Of a DNA stretch of 61,185 bases, positions 5,731 through 38,905 are shown piece by piece. The stretch lies in assembly GCF_002252565.1 (NCBI RefSeq), contig NZ_NPML01000022.1, positions 1 to 61,185 of the forward strand. Reading direction: 5' to 3'. The notes under the pieces were generated by a model. It was not told the DNA's origin. It searched no databases and saw nothing but the letters and a program-made list of their open reading frames with translations. Each line of letters begins with the position of its first letter. Positions within the stretch are counted from its first letter, which is position 1. This stretch comes from Petroclostridium xylanilyticum (lineage in GTDB: Bacteria > Bacillota > Clostridia > SK-Y3). A program made the translations under genes and the position numbers.

Positions 5731-7221
5731 ATGGGAAAACCGCTAGTCAAAAGAACATTGTCGATTTTTATCGCCATCGTTCTTGCATTAAGTGTTGCAG
5801 CATGCACAAAAAAAGCTGAACAACCTGCTGCTCCAGAAAAATCAGAAAAATCAGAAGCATCAAAAGAACCAGAAAAGCCAGCTTCAATTAAATTGATGGT
5901 AGACGGTACTTTCATTACTAAAGAAGCAGGTCAGGACCAATTTGTAGCAGAGTATAAAAAAATGACCGGCGTCGACCTTATTATCAACCAGCCGGCGCAC
6001 AACCAATACTATGAAAAAGTAAATCTTGCTTTTGCGTCTCAAGACATCCCGGATGTACTAATAATCAGCGGTACTACAATGGTCAACTATGCTATAAACG
6101 GTGCATTATATGATATGACTGATTTAGTTGATAAATCTCCAATTATGCAAAAGGTTGGTCAAAAGTACAAAGATGCTGTCAAGATAAATGGCAGACTATA
6201 CGCATTTCCAACACAGGCAGGTAATGGTCCGATTACCTATATGAGAAAAGATTGGTTGGAAAAGAACAATTTAAAAGTACCTACAACCTACGCTGAATAC
6301 TTGGAAGTTTTAAAGGTTTTTGCCAATGATCCAGATCAAAACGGAAAACAAGATACTATTGCTTTTACAGCACCGGGCCTTGTAAGTGATGACCCAACAA
6401 CTCTTCAAAACTATATGGTAGATTTCTATCAGGATGCAAGCCCTGATTTCATAAAGAAAGATGGTAAATGGGTAGATGGAATGCTTGAACCTGAAATGAA
6501 AGCAGCTCTTGAAAGAATGAGAGAAGCATATTCATTAGGTTTAATTGATAAAGAAATAGTAACCAATAAGACATCAACATGCAGAGATAAGTTTAATGCC
6601 GGTAAGGTTGGCGTATTTACTTATTGGGCAGGTACATGGAACATGAATCTTGAAAATGAGCTGAAGAAAGCCGTACGTGATGCCTCAATAGTGGCCATCC
6701 CTGCTATTAAAGAAACGAAATATCTTGAGAGAGTTCCGGCTACAATGGCAATTACAAGTAAAGCCGCAAATCCAGAAGGAATTTTTAAATATTTCTTTGA
6801 ATTTATGCATGATGGTGATAAGGGAACATTATTATTCTCTCATGGTGTTGAAGGAGTACACTACAAAGTAACCGATGGAAAATATGAGAAACTCCCAAGC
6901 TTGCAGGATCCTAAAAAGCCTGCCAACAAGGCATTTATTGATAACGGTCTACAGATAGTGCCATTTAATGACCCAATAACACCGGACCCAAGAATAACTG
7001 AATCTTTAAAAGTATTTAATGCAAATTCAATAGTATCAACTTTGCTTCCTGTATCCGAAAATTATACAAAGAACAGTGCAGACATTTTAACTGCAAGAAA
7101 AGAAACAATATCTAAAATAGTACTAGGACAAATGACAATTGAAGAAGGTTTGGCAAAATATGAAAAAGATACTAAAGCTATTACAGATTTAATTCTTAAA
7201 GACTTTAATGCAGCTAAATAA
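5731..7221 (+). CDS. Sugar ABC transporter substrate-binding lipoprotein (YtcQ/LplA-like)
   Basis: A 496-aa extracellular solute-binding protein that captures oligosaccharides, here probably (rhamno)galacturonan fragments. The N-terminus has a lipoprotein signal (ALSVAAC, lipid-anchored Cys at about 25) followed by a Lys/Glu/Pro-rich linker. The mature protein contains the family-1 solute-binding features PTQAGNGPITYMRKDWL near 165 and YWAGTWN near 300. AGGAGG precedes the ATG. Two permease genes follow after a stable hairpin, giving the YtcQ-YteP-YtcP layout known for rhamnogalacturonan import in Bacillus. No ATPase gene is present; such CUT1 importers share an MsmX-type ATPase encoded elsewhere. 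Confidence 0.85.
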   Translation: MGKPLVKRTLSIFIAIVLALSVAACTKKAEQPAAPEKSEKSEASKEPEKPASIKLMVDGTFITKEAGQDQFVAEYKKMTGVDLIINQPAHNQYYEKVNLAFASQDIPDVLIISGTTMVNYAINGALYDMTDLVDKSPIMQKVGQKYKDAVKINGRLYAFPTQAGNGPITYMRKDWLEKNNLKVPTTYAEYLEVLKVFANDPDQNGKQDTIAFTAPGLVSDDPTTLQNYMVDFYQDASPDFIKKDGKWVDGMLEPEMKAALERMREAYSLGLIDKEIVTNKTSTCRDKFNAGKVGVFTYWAGTWNMNLENELKKAVRDASIVAIPAIKETKYLERVPATMAITSKAANPEGIFKYFFEFMHDGDKGTLLFSHGVEGVHYKVTDGKYEKLPSLQDPKKPANKAFIDNGLQIVPFNDPITPDPRITESLKVFNANSIVSTLLPVSENYTKNSADILTARKETISKIVLGQMTIEEGLAKYEKDTKAITDLILKDFNAAK

Positions 7222-7238
7222 TATTTCTTAATATCATT

Positions 7239-7276
7239 AGATATACAAGCTGAATAACAATTCAGCTTGTATATCT
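7239..7276 (+). other. Stable stem-loop between binding protein and permease genes
   Basis: A perfect 17-bp inverted repeat (7239-7255 with 7260-7276) with loop AACA lies 18 bp after the binding-protein stop. No U-tract follows, so it looks more like an mRNA-stabilising or processing hairpin that lets the binding protein outnumber the permeases than a full terminator. Confidence 0.65.
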
Positions 7277-7309
7277 ACGTGAAATATAAAAAATTTATTC
7301 AGGAGGGGT

Positions 7310-8266
7310 ATGGAATTGTTTGCTAAAACCCAACGCAATAACCTAACACAAGGTACAGCAGTTGTTCCTAAAAAGAAAGATCTTGTGCGCAGGATAATAC
7401 AATACAAGTATTTTTATCTTATGTTTTTACCTGTTTTTATTTTTACAATAGTTTTTAATTATATTCCTATGGCAGGTATCCGATTTGCATTTTATAAGTA
7501 TAATCCTTTTGCTCCGCCAAAGTTTATTGGATGGGAAAATTTTAAAACCCTGCTTGTAAATCCGAAATTTATTGCGGCCTTTAAAAATACAATAACATTA
7601 AGTATTGTAAATCTTGTACTAGGTATGCTTGTTTCTATTATATTTGCATTGCTTTTGAATGAACTTTATAATAAATATTTTAAGAGTTTTGTACAAACTG
7701 TATTATATTTACCCCATTTTATTTCTTGGGTGGTTACCGCATCTATATTTTATTTGATTTTGTCGCCAACCGACGGCTTTATAAATCAAATATTAGGTTT
7801 CTTTGGTATTGAACCAATCTATTTTATGATTGAGGAAAAATGGTGGACTCCTATTTACTATTTTATTAACAGATGGAAGGAAACAGGTTGGGGAACTATT
7901 ATCTATTTAGCGGCATTATCCGGAATTAATCCGGAGTTATACGAAGCTGCGGTGATAGATGGCGCCGGGAGATTAAAGCAGACCTGGTATGTTACAATAC
8001 CTGGTATCATGAGCACGATACTTGTAGTATTTATACTTAATTTAGCTAAAGTTATGAATATATTTGAGTCAGTATTTGTTTTGCAAAACCCGATGGTACT
8101 CAATGTATCGGAAGTTATCAGGACATATAACTATAAGGTTGGTTTGCTTCAAAGTGACTATGGTTATTCTACAGCTGTAGGTCTTTTTAATTCTGTAATA
8201 TCAATGGTATTGGTGATTATTGCAGATAAAGCCAGCCAGAAAATTAAAGGTTCAGGGATACTGTAA
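7310..8266 (+). CDS. CUT1 sugar permease (YteP/LplB-like)
   Basis: A 318-aa inner-membrane permease subunit with six predicted membrane segments, the first at about residues 40-60 (FYLMFLPVFIFTIVF). The ATPase-docking EAA loop is EAAVIDGAGRLKQTWYVTIPG near residue 215. The size and sequence pattern are those of the LplB/YteP group that pairs with YtcQ-type binding proteins. The gene follows the binding protein by 88 bp and precedes the second permease by 18 bp. The ATG at 7310 is close to its GGAGGGG site; a slightly later start is possible. Confidence 0.85.
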   Translation: MELFAKTQRNNLTQGTAVVPKKKDLVRRIIQYKYFYLMFLPVFIFTIVFNYIPMAGIRFAFYKYNPFAPPKFIGWENFKTLLVNPKFIAAFKNTITLSIVNLVLGMLVSIIFALLLNELYNKYFKSFVQTVLYLPHFISWVVTASIFYLILSPTDGFINQILGFFGIEPIYFMIEEKWWTPIYYFINRWKETGWGTIIYLAALSGINPELYEAAVIDGAGRLKQTWYVTIPGIMSTILVVFILNLAKVMNIFESVFVLQNPMVLNVSEVIRTYNYKVGLLQSDYGYSTAVGLFNSVISMVLVIIADKASQKIKGSGIL

Positions 8267-17494: not shown

Positions 17495-17526
17495 AAGCTC
17501 AGACATTAATGCCTGAGCTTTTAATT
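17495..17526. terminator. Terminator between convergent genes
   Basis: AAGCTCAG (17495-17502) pairs with CTGAGCTT (17513-17520), followed by T-rich sequence on the plus strand. It serves the end of the pectin operon and abuts the stop of the minus-strand YibE/F gene. Confidence 0.7.
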
Positions 17527-18636
17527 TTTTATTTTTATGAAAGCAAAACTTATTGCTGTTATAGGTATGGCAAATAACAAGCCGATACTTCCTGTTACCG
17601 ACCGCATAATTTCTGTTGCAACAAAGTCAAGGTTCAAAATTTCGTTTACCGGCCTCTGGTAAGCAGCAAAAAGCATAATCATTGATAATGCGCCTCCGGT
17701 GTAAGCCAGTATCAACGTATTGGACATTGTACCCATAATATCCTTACCTATATTCATTCCGTGATGTATAATTTGTTTAAAAGACATATGACTATCTTTT
17801 TTATCCAGCTCTGTTAACGCCGACGCTATCGAAATAGACACATCCATGGCTGCTCCTAATGCGCCTATCAATATTCCTGCAAAGAGTAACCCACGGAAAT
17901 CCAACTGCGTCCCCTGCGGTATATACATTAGCATCTGGGCTTCTTCCGTGCCTAGTCCTGTAAGCCGTGCCAATACTCCATATAAATAGGCTATAGCGCC
18001 TCCAACCGAAATACCTCCTACGGTACCAAACACGGCAGATATAGATTTTCTATTCCATCCAGCTATAATGATCATTGTAACAATGGTAGATACAGCACAT
18101 ACAACAATGGAGAGCAATATAGGATTAGTTCCTTTTAATAATAGCGGGATCATAACGTATAACACAAGAAAAACTGTAATTCCCAGGGAAACTACGGATT
18201 TTACACCCTTCCATCCTCCAATAAGCACAAGCAATATAAGAAAAATACCTATTACCTGAAATACGTAGCTTACCCTTTCATATCCTGCTACATAGTAAGT
18301 CTCTTCTCCGCCTTCTGTCTTCTCCACGTGCAAGGCAACAACATCACCCTGCTTTAATTCTATATCATAAGCAGGATTTCCCGAGAGGTTATTTTGAACT
18401 TCTATGATCTTTCCTTTCAGCTCTTTATTAAGAATTTGAACATCTGCCACCTGAGTGATGACAGTAATGTTCCCTTCTTCAAACTTTTCTTCCTTAACTT
18501 CCTTTATCTTTACAACTTTAGCTCTGTATATTTTTACATCATTATTTGTATTTACCGATTCATCGGCGGCAAAGCATATACTCATTGAAAACGATATCAT
18601 TACAACGACACTTATAAATATGAACAGCTTACGCAC
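17521..18636 (-). CDS. YibE/F family membrane protein
   Basis: A 371-aa protein with an N-terminal signal (MRKLFIFISVVVMISFSMSICFA). An extracytoplasmic beta-rich region follows (residues 25-125), then about seven to eight membrane helices from residue ~127 to the end. Conserved YibE/F blocks include GGWKGVKS, GGISVGGAIAYLYG, GALGAAMDVSISIASAL and GTMSNTLILAYTGGAL. The family's transport substrate is unknown. The start is GTG 18636 after GAGGAGGAG. It follows a metal-uptake cluster on the same strand, but a possible Fur-controlled promoter and a terminator lie between, so it is probably separately controlled. Confidence 0.85.
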   Translation of the reverse strand: MRKLFIFISVVVMISFSMSICFAADESVNTNNDVKIYRAKVVKIKEVKEEKFEEGNITVITQVADVQILNKELKGKIIEVQNNLSGNPAYDIELKQGDVVALHVEKTEGGEETYYVAGYERVSYVFQVIGIFLILLVLIGGWKGVKSVVSLGITVFLVLYVMIPLLLKGTNPILLSIVVCAVSTIVTMIIIAGWNRKSISAVFGTVGGISVGGAIAYLYGVLARLTGLGTEEAQMLMYIPQGTQLDFRGLLFAGILIGALGAAMDVSISIASALTELDKKDSHMSFKQIIHHGMNIGKDIMGTMSNTLILAYTGGALSMIMLFAAYQRPVNEILNLDFVATEIMRSVTGSIGLLFAIPITAISFAFIKIKN

Positions 18637-18685: not shown

Positions 18686-18857
18686 ATAAAAAAATCCTTC
18701 ATACTTTAATATTTTTTTGGATGAAGGACTATAATCTCATTATCTATCATTCAATTCTTCTATTAATTCCTTCTAGCCGCACCATGATAGTCATTATAGC
18801 TTAATATTTCTTAAAGGTATAAATAATATTTCCCACAATTTTCATACTCTTATTATG
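18686..18857 (-). ncRNA. Candidate Fur-controlled small RNA or terminated leader
   Basis: Reading right to left, a promoter (see 18864-18901) is followed after ~130 nt by an intrinsic terminator: AGTCCTTCAT (from 18729) pairs with ATGAAGGA and is followed by seven U (18694-18688). The interval contains only one tiny frame (MTIMVRLEGINRRIE). It could be a free ~170-nt sRNA or an attenuated leader of the YibE/F gene at 18636. The same terminator could also simply end the ZIP transcript. Confidence 0.4.
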
Positions 18858-18863
18858 CTTAAT

Positions 18864-18901
18864 ATAATATTAGTTGTCGACAATATTGATAATGATTATT
18901 A
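18864..18901 (-). promoter_or_regulatory. Promoter overlapped by a Fur-type box
   Basis: On the minus strand TTATCA (18892-18887), a 17-bp spacer and TATTAT (18869-18864) form a promoter. The plus-strand sequence TGATAATGATTATTA (18887-18901) matches the Fur 7-1-7 palindrome (TGATAAT-N-ATTATCA) at 13 of 14 positions and covers the -35 element, a standard repression position. Confidence 0.5.
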
Positions 18902-18942
18902 TTATTATTTTGTTTTGTAAATAAGGCTTCATTCTTCAAATT

Positions 18943-19755
18943 TTAAATAAACAAAAGTAGACTTACAGCCATTACCATCATCCCTGCAACAAGACCATAA
19001 ATAGAAAGGTGATGTTCCCCGTACTCTCTTGCAGTAGGTAAAAGTTCATCCAGAGAAATAAATACCATAATCCCTGCTACTAAAGCGAATAATATGCCGA
19101 AAACAATATTATTGAAAAAGGGAAGTAAGATTAAATACCCGATTAATGCTCCTACAGGCTCGGAAAATCCAGAAAGAAATGACAATAGAAATGCTTTCTT
19201 TTTGTCTCCCGTGGCATAAAAAACAGGTACGGAAACAGCGATTCCTTCAGGAATGTTGTGAATTGCTATCGCTACTGCAATTGCAATACCAAGCGACGGG
19301 TCTTTAATTGCTGATGTGAAGGTAGCCAGACCCTCAGGAAAATTATGAATAGCAATCGCAAGAGCTGTAAACGCACCCATTCTTAAAAGTTTTTCATCGG
19401 TGCTTTTTTCATTGTATTCCTTCATCTCCTCTACTTTACGTACTTCATGAGGATTTTCACTGGTAGGAATAAATTTATCTATTGCACCAATTAAAAACAT
19501 TCCTGCAAAAAATGCTGCAACTGTTGTCCACGATCCGCCTATTTCCCCCATTTCTTTTACCAGCGAATCTTTTGCCTTAAAAAATATTTCTATCATCGAA
19601 ACGTAAATCATAACCCCAGCAGAAAAGCCCAGTGTCACTGAAAGGAATTTCGTATTTGTTTTTTTTGTAAAAAATGCAAGAATACTACCTATTCCTGTAG
19701 ATAATCCTGCAAAGAGAGTAATGCCGAAAGCAAAAAGAATATTGCTTAATTCCAT
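18943..19755 (-). CDS. ZIP family divalent metal transporter
   Basis: A 270-aa, eight-helix importer of zinc or related divalent metals. The two amphipathic metal-path helices are intact: [10 protein letters not shown] near 137 and [13 protein letters not shown] near 165, both with the HN-PEG signature of ZIPs. A variable cytoplasmic loop ([20 protein letters not shown], residues ~102-121) has one His. The size and motifs fit the ZupT/GufA type. ATG follows AAGGAGGAG. It lies 87 bp after the CbiO gene on the same strand, in a metal-handling cluster headed by a Fur-family gene. Confidence 0.88.
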
Positions 19756-19842: not shown

Positions 19843-20679
19843 TCACCTATTCATCCCCGCTAACTTGCATATCTCCATTTCTGCCTGGTCAATATTGACA
19901 GGAATATTGACTTCAAGGCCCCTTTGTCTTAGTTTACTAAATAATTGTATCAATATAGGCGGCTCCAGGTTGGCTTCTGTTAAAACATCTATTTGTTTAA
20001 ATATTTCTTCCGGTGTACCACTGCTTACAATATGCCCCTTATTTATAATGTATATAATATCTGCAATATGCGGAACGATATTGATGTCATGAGTAGTAAT
20101 AATGGTAGTTACGCCCATATCCCTATTAAGAGAATTAATAAGTTCTATCATCTCCCTCTTCGCCCTTGGGTCCAGCCCGTCAAAAGGTTCATCCATGATT
20201 AAAAGCTCAGGAGACATAGCCATAGCACCGGCCAGTGCCACCTTTTTCTTTTGTCCTCCGCTTAAGTAATGAGGGATCTTATCTAGAATATGGGTAATTC
20301 CCAGTATTCCTGCAATTTGCTCTACCTTTTCTTTCACTGTTCCTTTGTCCACCCCTCCATTTCGCAGTGAAAAAGCTATATCATCATATACTGTAGGCCC
20401 GATAATCTGTTCATCGACATTTTGAAAAACTACACCAATCTTTTTACGTATCTGTTTAAATTCTTTGGAGGGACTCACACCAAAAACAGAAATCTCCCCA
20501 TCTACCGGCTTTAAAAGTCCTAATATATGGGATAGCAGTGTAGTTTTTCCCGTGCCGTTTGGCCCTAATATTACAACCCTCTCCCCTTTATGTACTACAA
20601 AATCCAGTCCGCAAATACTGACCTCCGTTTTATCCGGATAAACGTGCTTAATACACCTTACCTTTATAATTTCACTCAA
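19843..20679 (-). CDS. cbiO: ECF transporter ATPase CbiO (cobalt/nickel type)
   Basis: A 278-aa ABC ATPase that drives the cobalt/nickel ECF transporter. Walker A is GPNGTGKTT (~39-47), the Q-loop VVFQNVDEQI near 83, signature LSGGQKKK near 140, Walker B LLIMDEPFDGLD near 160, and the switch His in TTHD. The start is TTG 20679, whose bases overlap the TGA stop of cbiQ, so the two genes are translationally coupled. GGCGGTGAT is the ribosome site. Neighbouring cbiM and cbiQ complete the transporter. Confidence 0.88.
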   Translation of the reverse strand: MSEIIKVRCIKHVYPDKTEVSICGLDFVVHKGERVVILGPNGTGKTTLLSHILGLLKPVDGEISVFGVSPSKEFKQIRKKIGVVFQNVDEQIIGPTVYDDIAFSLRNGGVDKGTVKEKVEQIAGILGITHILDKIPHYLSGGQKKKVALAGAMAMSPELLIMDEPFDGLDPRAKREMIELINSLNRDMGVTTIITTHDINIVPHIADIIYIINKGHIVSSGTPEEIFKQIDVLTEANLEPPILIQLFSKLRQRGLEVNIPVNIDQAEMEICKLAGMNR

Positions 20680-21380
20680 AATATCACCGCCACTGCTATT
20701 ATAATTATGCTAACTCCAATAGGAATATAATCTGATTTCTTAAACTTGTACCAGTTATTTTCTTGAGAAAGCTTTCCTTCATACCCTCTCAAAGAATATA
20801 TGTTATACATTCTTTCTGACATGTCAAAGGCGTGGATAAACAATACACCTATCACACCTGCCAGATTTTTTACATTAAAGAGTATGTTGGAAGGTCTAAA
20901 ACCCCCTCTAAGCTTTATAATCGTTAAAGCCTTGTGTAATTTTTCCAGCAATATAAAGAATATCCTGTAAGTAAAAAACATCCCGTCCACCACTACCCCC
21001 GGTAAAAACAAGCGGAAGAAGGAAAATATCCGGGTATAGGGCGTGGTAGTTATTAAAAGAATCATTGCCATAGCCGCATCTACCGCCTTTAATATTACTA
21101 CAAATCCTGCTTCTGCTGAATAAGTAAACCGGGTCAGTGCAAACACCAGGCTGAAAAAAGCAGGATATAAAGCAAAGTGCATTATTCCTCCTATAGGTAG
21201 CTTGCTTATTGCATTTAATAAGATTAAAATTATCAAAATCAACAATAATGGAATTAAATGGTTAGATATAACAATAGATACTATGATACTACCTGTTAAG
21301 AAAATTTTAGAGATGACCGAAGCCCTGTGCAGGCAGCCATCTCCATTGTTTGATAATTGATCAATATAGGCTATATCCAT
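20676..21380 (-). CDS. cbiQ: ECF transporter transmembrane component CbiQ
   Basis: A 234-aa membrane component linking CbiM to the ATPase. Four to five hydrophobic segments lie between residues ~25 and 120 and at the C-terminus. The coupling-helix motifs of CbiQ/EcfT are seen around ALTIIKLRGGF and SERMYNIYSLRGYEG, with an Ala/Ser-Arg-Gly core (LRG twice). Start choice: the frame is open to 21413, but those first 11 codons are a TGCA-rich intergenic repeat. ATG 21380 follows GGAGG at proper spacing, so it is preferred and removes the overlap with cbiM. Confidence 0.85.
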   Translation of the reverse strand: MDIAYIDQLSNNGDGCLHRASVISKIFLTGSIIVSIVISNHLIPLLLILIILILLNAISKLPIGGIMHFALYPAFFSLVFALTRFTYSAEAGFVVILKAVDAAMAMILLITTTPYTRIFSFFRLFLPGVVVDGMFFTYRIFFILLEKLHKALTIIKLRGGFRPSNILFNVKNLAGVIGVLFIHAFDMSERMYNIYSLRGYEGKLSQENNWYKFKKSDYIPIGVSIIIIAVAVIF

Positions 21381-21394
21381 AAGTTCCTCCAAAA

Positions 21395-22132
21395 TCAATT
21401 CTGCATTGTGCATTCTGCATTCTGCATTATTAAATCCGGCCTTACCTTCATGAAGAAGCCAACCACCAAGGACGTTACCAGGGTTTCAATGGCAATTCCC
21501 AGCAGCAATATGACAGCTACTGCACCCCATCCTGAAAATACAAAGATATGTATCTCGGATAGAAGTTCTTCGAGTTCTTCATGCTCAGCCTCAGCGTTAA
21601 GCTGCTCATCTTGATGAGCTTCTTCCTCATGGGGCAGCGCATGCTCCAGTCCTGCACTGGTCCCAATTACAATGCCTGCCATTAGTGTAGTAGATATCAA
21701 TAAAGTAACAATAACCGTAACAGCTACCGCTGTAACCGGTTTGATGTGTTTTGCTATCGCTTTAAATAAAAAGTACCCCACTATAACTTCTGTTCCAATG
21801 ATTAAGGTGTTTAGCCCTATAACCGTAATACCGCCATGCCCTATGAAAGCCAGTATAATATTGACAATAAAGACTGCTATAAATCCTAACCACGGTCCTG
21901 CCAGAATTCCTGCTAGTACGGTAAGGTTCAGGTGAAAAGGTAAAAAACCTAAAGGTACTGACATGGTTATAAGCATTAATGCACCTATAACTCCAATAAA
22001 CGGTACTTTTTTAGATAACTCTTCTTTTTTTACTTTTGTCACTGCAAACCCTAAAACACCCAGGGCCAATACATACCCCAGTATCCACCATACCGGCGCG
22101 ATCACTCCGTCCACAAGATGTAAATGACTCAT
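21395..22132 (-). CDS. cbiM: ECF transporter substrate-binding component CbiM, CbiN not separate
   Basis: A 245-aa membrane protein that binds Co/Ni. It starts MSHLHLVDGVI, the metal-binding CbiM/NikM N-terminus (here with an extra Ser, placing His at positions 3 and 5). Further motifs are PLGFLPFHLNLT and GHGGITVIGLN, the latter with metal-ligand His. A His/Glu-rich loop (HALPHEEEAHQDEQ, residues ~160-190) and a last helix near 205-230 may stand in for CbiN, for which there is no gene. The last ~11 residues (IMQNAECTMQN) are encoded by an intergenic simple repeat and are not family sequence. ATG follows GGTGAGAG. Confidence 0.85.
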   Translation of the reverse strand: MSHLHLVDGVIAPVWWILGYVLALGVLGFAVTKVKKEELSKKVPFIGVIGALMLITMSVPLGFLPFHLNLTVLAGILAGPWLGFIAVFIVNIILAFIGHGGITVIGLNTLIIGTEVIVGYFLFKAIAKHIKPVTAVAVTVIVTLLISTTLMAGIVIGTSAGLEHALPHEEEAHQDEQLNAEAEHEELEELLSEIHIFVFSGWGAVAVILLLGIAIETLVTSLVVGFFMKVRPDLIMQNAECTMQN

Positions 22133-22164
22133 AAAATTCTCTCACCTTTGCTTTTTATTTTAAA

Positions 22165-22277
22165 TTAACTGCCACGCCGGGCGCATCCGGCACAAATAAT
22201 GATGAAAATATGCTAAACCGGACTTTTTCTGTGGTTTCAGTTTTACTCCCCACTGTTCACTTCCCACTATTTTCATA
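22165..22277. repeat. Intergenic structured repeat, copy A
   Basis: This element between the Fur-family gene and cbiM shares blocks with 45561-45673: TTAAC-GCCACG, CACAAAT-ATGATGAAAATA, GTTTTACTCCCCAC and CCCACTATTTTCATA. The small hairpin in it is GCCGG / CCGGC (22176-22180 with 22187-22191). In copy B the same position has a different but still perfect stem. The ends ATGAAAATA and TATTTTCAT can pair. Confidence 0.6.
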
Positions 22278-22700
22278 TTAAATTGCTTGCTGGCAGTCGG
22301 GACAATAACCGTACATTTCCAAACGGTGTCCGGTTATTTTAAACTGGGTTTGGTTTTTAATGCTTTTCTCAAAATCAGCAACCGGACATCCTTCTATCTC
22401 TATCATTTTTTTGCAACCCACACAGATAATATGATGATGATGCAAATTGGAATTTATTTCATATCTATATTTATTATCACCAAAATTTATTTTGTTTAAC
22501 ATGTTATTTGAAGATAATAACTCAATGGTTCTATATACAGTCGTAAGACATGTGCCCGGATTAAGTTTTTTTGCTTCCAGGTATATTTCCTCTGCCGACA
22601 GACATGTATTACTCTGTGAAAGTATATTCAGAATCGCTTTTCTCTGCTTTGTTATCTTACATTTCCGATCTGTAAAAAAGTTTTTCAATCGATTGTCCAT
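22278..22700 (-). CDS. Fur-family metal-responsive repressor
   Basis: A 140-aa DNA-binding repressor with an N-terminal winged helix (QRKAILNILSQSNTCLSAEEIYLEAKK, then TVYRTIELL recognition helix) and a C-terminal dimer domain. That domain carries an HHHHIICVGCKK metal site and a second CPDC pair, so a structural Zn(Cys)4 site is present. Start choice: ATG 22712 has no ribosome site, while ATG 22700 follows GGGGAG. A 7-1-7 palindrome just downstream of its promoter suggests autoregulation. It heads a cobalt/nickel ECF and ZIP cluster, so Zur- or Nur-like sensing is plausible; Fur or PerR cannot be excluded. Confidence 0.85.
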   Translation of the reverse strand: MDNRLKNFFTDRKCKITKQRKAILNILSQSNTCLSAEEIYLEAKKLNPGTCLTTVYRTIELLSSNNMLNKINFGDNKYRYEINSNLHHHHIICVGCKKMIEIEGCPVADFEKSIKNQTQFKITGHRLEMYGYCPDCQQAI

Positions 22701-22718
22701 GTCTCTCCCCATCCTATT

Positions 22719-22774
22719 TGCAAATCATTTGCATTTCCATTTAGCATTATATTCTTTTTTCAAAATTCCGTCAA
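22719..22774 (-). promoter_or_regulatory. Promoter and 7-1-7 operator of the Fur-family gene
   Basis: On the minus strand TTGACG (22774-22769), a 17-bp spacer and TATAAT (22751-22746) form a near-consensus promoter. Immediately downstream, TGCAAAT-C-ATTTGCA (22719-22733, plus strand) is a perfect 7-1-7 inverted repeat, the geometry of Fur/Zur/PerR operators. It lies at about +5 to +20, where binding would block transcription. Confidence 0.7.
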
Positions 22775-38611: not shown

Positions 38612-38905
38612 TTTATAAATAAAAAACCCCGCACCCTGTACATGCACATGTACAGGGGCGAGGAATGCTTCTTCGCGTTACCACCCTACTTCACTACTGT
38701 TTCACAACAGTAGCCTCAGTGAGTATAAAGTTACTCATACTATAACGGAGTATTCCGATACATCCTACTGTAATTTCAGATGTATAGCTCAAGAGTGAGA
38801 TTATTATATATACCTCCCACCGATTTGCACCAACCACCGGCTCTCTTAAGAGTACAGTATATTTTTTACCTCTTTCATCGCTTTTTACTATTTAAGTATA
38901 ATTGT
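38612..38905 (-). promoter_or_regulatory. T-box leader of the ilv-leu operon
   Basis: On the minus strand the leader has a Stem I with GAGAGCCGGUGGUUGGUG (38844-38827), the antiterminator core AGGGUGGUAACGCG (38688-38675) and a strong terminator (CCCUGUACAUGUG / CAUGUACAGGG followed by GCGGGGUUUUUU, 38658-38621). An uncharged tRNA would pair with UGG of the core and let transcription proceed to ilvB. In the Stem I 3' side, the likely specifier is CUC (Leu) in UAAUCUCAC, with AUC (Ile) one register away. Upstream, 38906-39023 holds nothing recognised apart from AT-rich promoter-like DNA. Confidence 0.9.

Follow-up and report, generated by a model that had tools for sequence, protein, structure and literature searches.

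A non-coding segment on the minus strand of Petroclostridium xylanilyticum DNA, located between the genes of a ZIP-family metal transporter (zupT) and a YibE/F-family membrane protein (yibEF), is homologous over positions 18899-18811 to the promoter of a feo operon, has lost the start features and the coding sequence of feoA, and is followed by a real terminator before yibEF. On balance, we favour the interpretation that it is a relic or relocated promoter and leader of a feoA-feoA-feoB ferrous-iron uptake operon, possibly still firing into an attenuated yibEF transcript. As a probable gene-less leftover of an iron-repressed promoter, placed between two genes of metal-transporter type, it is of modest evolutionary interest. 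The whole stretch of DNA analysed, referred to as the window, is 61,185 nucleotides long. In the order of minus-strand transcription the locus consists of a Fur paralog, CbiM-, CbiQ- and CbiO-like genes, zupT, a gap of 306 nt and the YibE/F gene (Table 1). No terminator was found between the zupT stop codon and the Fur box, and in a promoter scan no promoter was seen between the terminator and the YibE/F gene.

Table 1. Positions of the features discussed in the text (numbering of the window)
Feature	Position	Strand	Description
YibE/F-family membrane protein	17521-18636	-	GTG start; downstream of the terminator
Intrinsic terminator	18693-18730	-	10-bp stem AGTCCTTCAT/ATGAAGGATT, 18-nt A-rich loop, then U run
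Segment homologous to feo promoter, 5' UTR and first feoA codons	18811-18899	-	77% over 89 nt
Lost feoA translation start	18818-18834	-	GGGAAA (18834-18829) for GGGAGG; ATA (18820-18818) for ATG
Promoter indicated by homology	18852-18880	-	-35 TCGACA (18880-18875), 17-nt spacer, -10 CATAAT (18857-18852)
Promoter of the first-pass annotation	18864-18892	-	-35 TTATCA (18892-18887), 17 nt, -10 TATTAT (18869-18864)
Fur box, iron type	18887-18901	-	TAATAATCATTATCA on -, TGATAATGATTATTA on +; 13/14 of TGATAATNATTATCA
ZIP-family metal transporter (ZupT)	18943-19755	-	
Fur paralog and CbiM-, CbiQ-, CbiO-like ECF metal transporter genes	19843-22712	-	Upstream of zupT
Fur paralog	22278-22712	-	

A DNA search of 60 relatives returned one strong match (E 5.7e-9), between window positions 18899-18811 and G003:C1:5007849-5007936. 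The latter place, in Petroclostridium sp. X23 (G003), which belongs to the same family as the window genome, comprises the Fur-boxed promoter, the 5' UTR and the start of the feoA-feoA-feoB operon. The X23 promoter contains a Fur box, a second Fur box over the promoter and the hexamers TTGACA-17-TATAAT, followed by the 5' UTR GTATGAAAATTATGGGAGGTATTATT and the start ATGCCGTTAAC; the window counterpart of the 5' UTR and start reads GTATGAAAATTGTGGGAAATATTATTTATACCTTTAA. The two sequences are collinear and have in common the upstream Fur box, the promoter with its 17-nt spacing and a 5' UTR of the form GTATGAAAATTrTGGGA..TATTA.TTAT.CC.TTAA, whereas the second Fur box, the Shine-Dalgarno sequence, the ATG and the feoA and feoB genes are missing from the window, where the terminator and yibEF come next. 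When positions 18800-18905 were compared with 291 genomes of the class, the X23 feo leader was the best match with 58.1 bits and the next one scored 41.9. Such a calibration is needed for single-alignment scores of AT-rich DNA, because in a less stringent test a score of 54 against 14 kb was reached by a single shuffle out of 300. The part after the -10 hexamer (the 5' UTR) alone scored 44, compared with an average of 19 and at most 36 for 5000 shuffles, and in the reverse search with the X23 feo leader the segment was the sole match in the window genome. Plasmid and viral collections contained no match to the segment.

The Fur box reported by the first-pass annotation is present on the minus strand, with one mismatch to TGATAAT-N-ATTATCA. 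Alone, it is not significant genome-wide: with an order-3 Markov model built on about 110 kb of the P. xylanilyticum genome, 6.2 boxes with exactly one mismatch and 0.21 perfect boxes are expected in the whole genome, and 8 and 1, respectively, were observed. Promoter-like sites in the 3-kb region were likewise as frequent as expected (12 observed, 12.1 expected). Since these counts are at chance level, box and promoter by themselves prove nothing, and it is the homology to the Fur-boxed feo promoter that raises the box above chance. Three of the nine best Fur sites of the genome are located at the fbpA and feoA promoters. The single perfect box (C29) lies in front of a gene for an iron(III) transporter, judged fbpA-like from its sequence, and two boxes with one mismatch precede the feoA-feoB-fur operon (C7). 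Like the window box, the boxes in front of these two loci are of the TGATAATNATTATCA type flanked by AATATT, but they directly precede intact iron-uptake genes, which the window box does not. At the feoA-feoB-fur operon (L070, G000:C7:460000-474732, ~6700-7350) a transposase-like fragment abuts the outer Fur box.

Beside the box, and collinear with the feo promoter, is TCGACA-17-CATAAT (10/12), which aligns with TTGACA-17-TATAAT of X23 with five of six positions matching in each hexamer; this is the arrangement of an iron-type Fur-regulated promoter, in which a 7-1-7 box overlaps or adjoins a sigma-A promoter. Because this is the aligned pair, the predicted transcription start is near 18845 and not near 18857. 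The promoter proposed earlier, TTATCA-17-TATTAT, does exist, but it is not special: its score of 9/12 is at chance level and it is not the pair that aligns with the feo promoter. The promoter region also contains a 10-nt palindrome, TTGTCGACAA (18874-18883), of a length that chance alone would be expected to produce in a window of 60 kb.

An intact feo operon leader would possess a Shine-Dalgarno sequence, a start codon and feoA, none of which is preserved in the window segment. The second Fur box has decayed to five mismatches (a by-eye count from the alignment), so iron regulation may be weak or gone. After position 18811 no feoA or feoB coding sequence could be recognised, and the 120 nt following the leader yielded no FeoA remnant, either with Pfam in three frames or in a DNA alignment compared with shuffles; in view of these results, VRLEGINRRIE/MIDNEIIVLHP, which resembles FeoA to the eye, was not retained. 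With no recognisable trace of feoA coding further down, the case for a relic depends on some 90 nt and a single relative. X23 and G004 keep the feoA-feoA-feoB operon elsewhere in the genome. The one FeoA and the one convincing FeoB gene of the window genome are at C7, which, taken with the lack of feo coding sequence after 18811, makes it seem that this genome lost the operon here or never had it intact here.

The claim of an intrinsic terminator with no real reading frame in the segment was borne out. The longest ORF in the segment has about 14 codons, and the terminator (about -9.7 kcal/mol) is well above chance: one of this class was found in only 0.2% of the shuffles of the 306-nt gap, and across the window there are 9 as compared with 1.4 per shuffle. 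An origin of the terminator from the 3' end of the feo operon was rejected, as no convincing match to X23 or G004 was obtained. Another leader with its terminator, a T-box (38627-38887; Rfam RF00230, 126.6 bits), is located ahead of branched-chain amino-acid biosynthesis genes.

If the segment is a relic feo promoter that remains active, Fur would leave the box when iron is scarce, and TCGACA-17-CATAAT would still fire near 18845. The resulting transcript of about 150 nt would mostly stop at 18693, readthrough from zupT would likewise mostly stop there, and the fraction reading past this point would make YibE/F. We infer that the segment is not a trans-acting sRNA but either an iron-responsive leader and promoter for yibEF or a remnant undergoing decay. 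Of the suggestions made in the first-pass annotation, Fur-controlled transcription gains from the homology to a Fur-boxed feo promoter, whereas its iron-sparing sRNA does not hold up (see below). An attenuated YibE/F leader comes closer to the favoured interpretation, but box plus terminator was found upstream of YibE/F in 0 of 80 loci of relatives. The third suggestion, a ZIP gene terminator with an unrelated box, is only partly right, as the box is part of a promoter recognisably of the feo type.

The absence of box plus terminator in the 80 loci makes any role for yibEF lineage-specific at best. The gene order is fur-cbiMQO-rubrerythrin-like-...-zupT-96 nt-yibEF in X23 and fur-cbiMQO-116 nt-yibEF in G001; neither gap before yibEF contains a good Fur box or a strong terminator. 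A conserved leader upstream of yibE/F was not found in the 80 loci, and general Fur control of yibE/F was rejected, since upstream Fur-like sites do not look enriched there. feoA or feoB was located within about 6 kb of yibE/F in six of the 80 loci, compared with ~0.6-1 estimated from feoA density with relatedness ignored; YibE/F loci beside feoA-feoB, often with a DtxR/MntR-like regulator, are L141, L126, L128, L120, L084, L129 and L214. This recurrent neighbourhood suggests a metal-related role of YibE/F, and it makes a feo remnant beside yibEF less odd. YibE/F is a membrane-protein family for which an assigned role was not found in the literature searched: no link of YibE with Fur or feoB was found, and a query for YibE with transporter and Clostridi gave no paper that was on YibE by its title or abstract. 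If the promoter is live, YibE/F would be under iron control in one lineage, which together with the feoAB neighbourhood would hint that YibE/F belongs to metal handling.

The main rival, which we consider rather unlikely although by no means negligible, is pure decay: a dead feo promoter left by deletion or rearrangement, a terminator that ends fur-cbiMQO-zupT, and yibEF expressed by leaky readthrough or from an unseen promoter. The loss of Shine-Dalgarno sequence, start codon and second Fur box, the imperfect hexamers and the lack of conservation upstream of yibE/F would all fit this, as would the hairpins seen by eye in the gaps before yibE of X23 and G001, each within the same operon, as if partial termination were normal there. 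On the other hand, 13/14 positions of the Fur box and the 17-nt length of the spacer have survived family-level divergence, and yibEF needs some transcript source, given that no promoter is seen between the terminator and the gene.

A Fur-repressed, trans-acting iron-sparing sRNA of about 150-170 nt, resembling RyhB, FsrA or IsrR, appears very unlikely. The segment does resemble these systems in its suitably spaced Fur box, promoter and terminator and in a short, ORF-free predicted transcript, but it differs from them in conservation, seed and structure, and in its 5' part it shares homology with an mRNA leader. The conservation of the ~170-nt segment, which the earlier proposal had named as a check, was not observed: in 60 relatives nothing matched the RNA body convincingly. 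Rfam 15, searched with gathering and permissive thresholds, assigned no sRNA or riboswitch family, sub-threshold matches on the segment being at chance level, and the whole leader folds no better than its shuffles (z -0.14). FsrA pairs with its targets through C-rich single-stranded motifs. Such target-pairing motifs are also described for IsrR (PMC9410917). The segment contains 7.5% C, with no run of at least three C, and no C-rich motif. It would be similarly improbable that a young stand-alone Fur-controlled non-coding RNA was born from the feo leader through loss of the coding region and gain of a terminator. As a caution, a Fur box combined with a terminator but lacking an ORF can represent the decayed leader of an mRNA instead of an sRNA gene.

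Least probable is a true attenuator or riboswitch governing yibEF through competing folds at the terminator. Until the 3' arm has been transcribed, pairing is feasible between the leader's 5' end and the 5' arm of the terminator (-16 kcal/mol fold), and an upstream GAAGGA is complementary to the terminator UCCUUC (-8.8 kcal/mol), but the terminator fold is favoured (-24.3), the leader shows neither folding above shuffles nor an Rfam riboswitch, and there are no homologous leaders for covariation.

The Fur paralog encoded upstream is unlikely to control the box at 18887, as its own operon has a different, conserved operator, TGCAAATNATTTGCA. The Fur paralog-cbiMQO(-zupT) operon carries a perfect palindromic 7-1-7 operator, TGCAAATGATTTGCA, at 22719-22733, just after the -10 hexamer, and this operator type is also perfect in two genomes of the same family, G001 and X23. 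Because of this different operator of the neighbouring operon, the box at 18887 gives the impression of a piece of the iron regulon grafted into surroundings that are for the rest controlled by a different member of the Fur family. Sites with at most two mismatches to the operator pattern number 60 in the genome compared with 7 for the reversed control (about 8-fold commoner), and 22719-22733 is probably the autoregulatory site of the (Zur-like?) Fur paralog.
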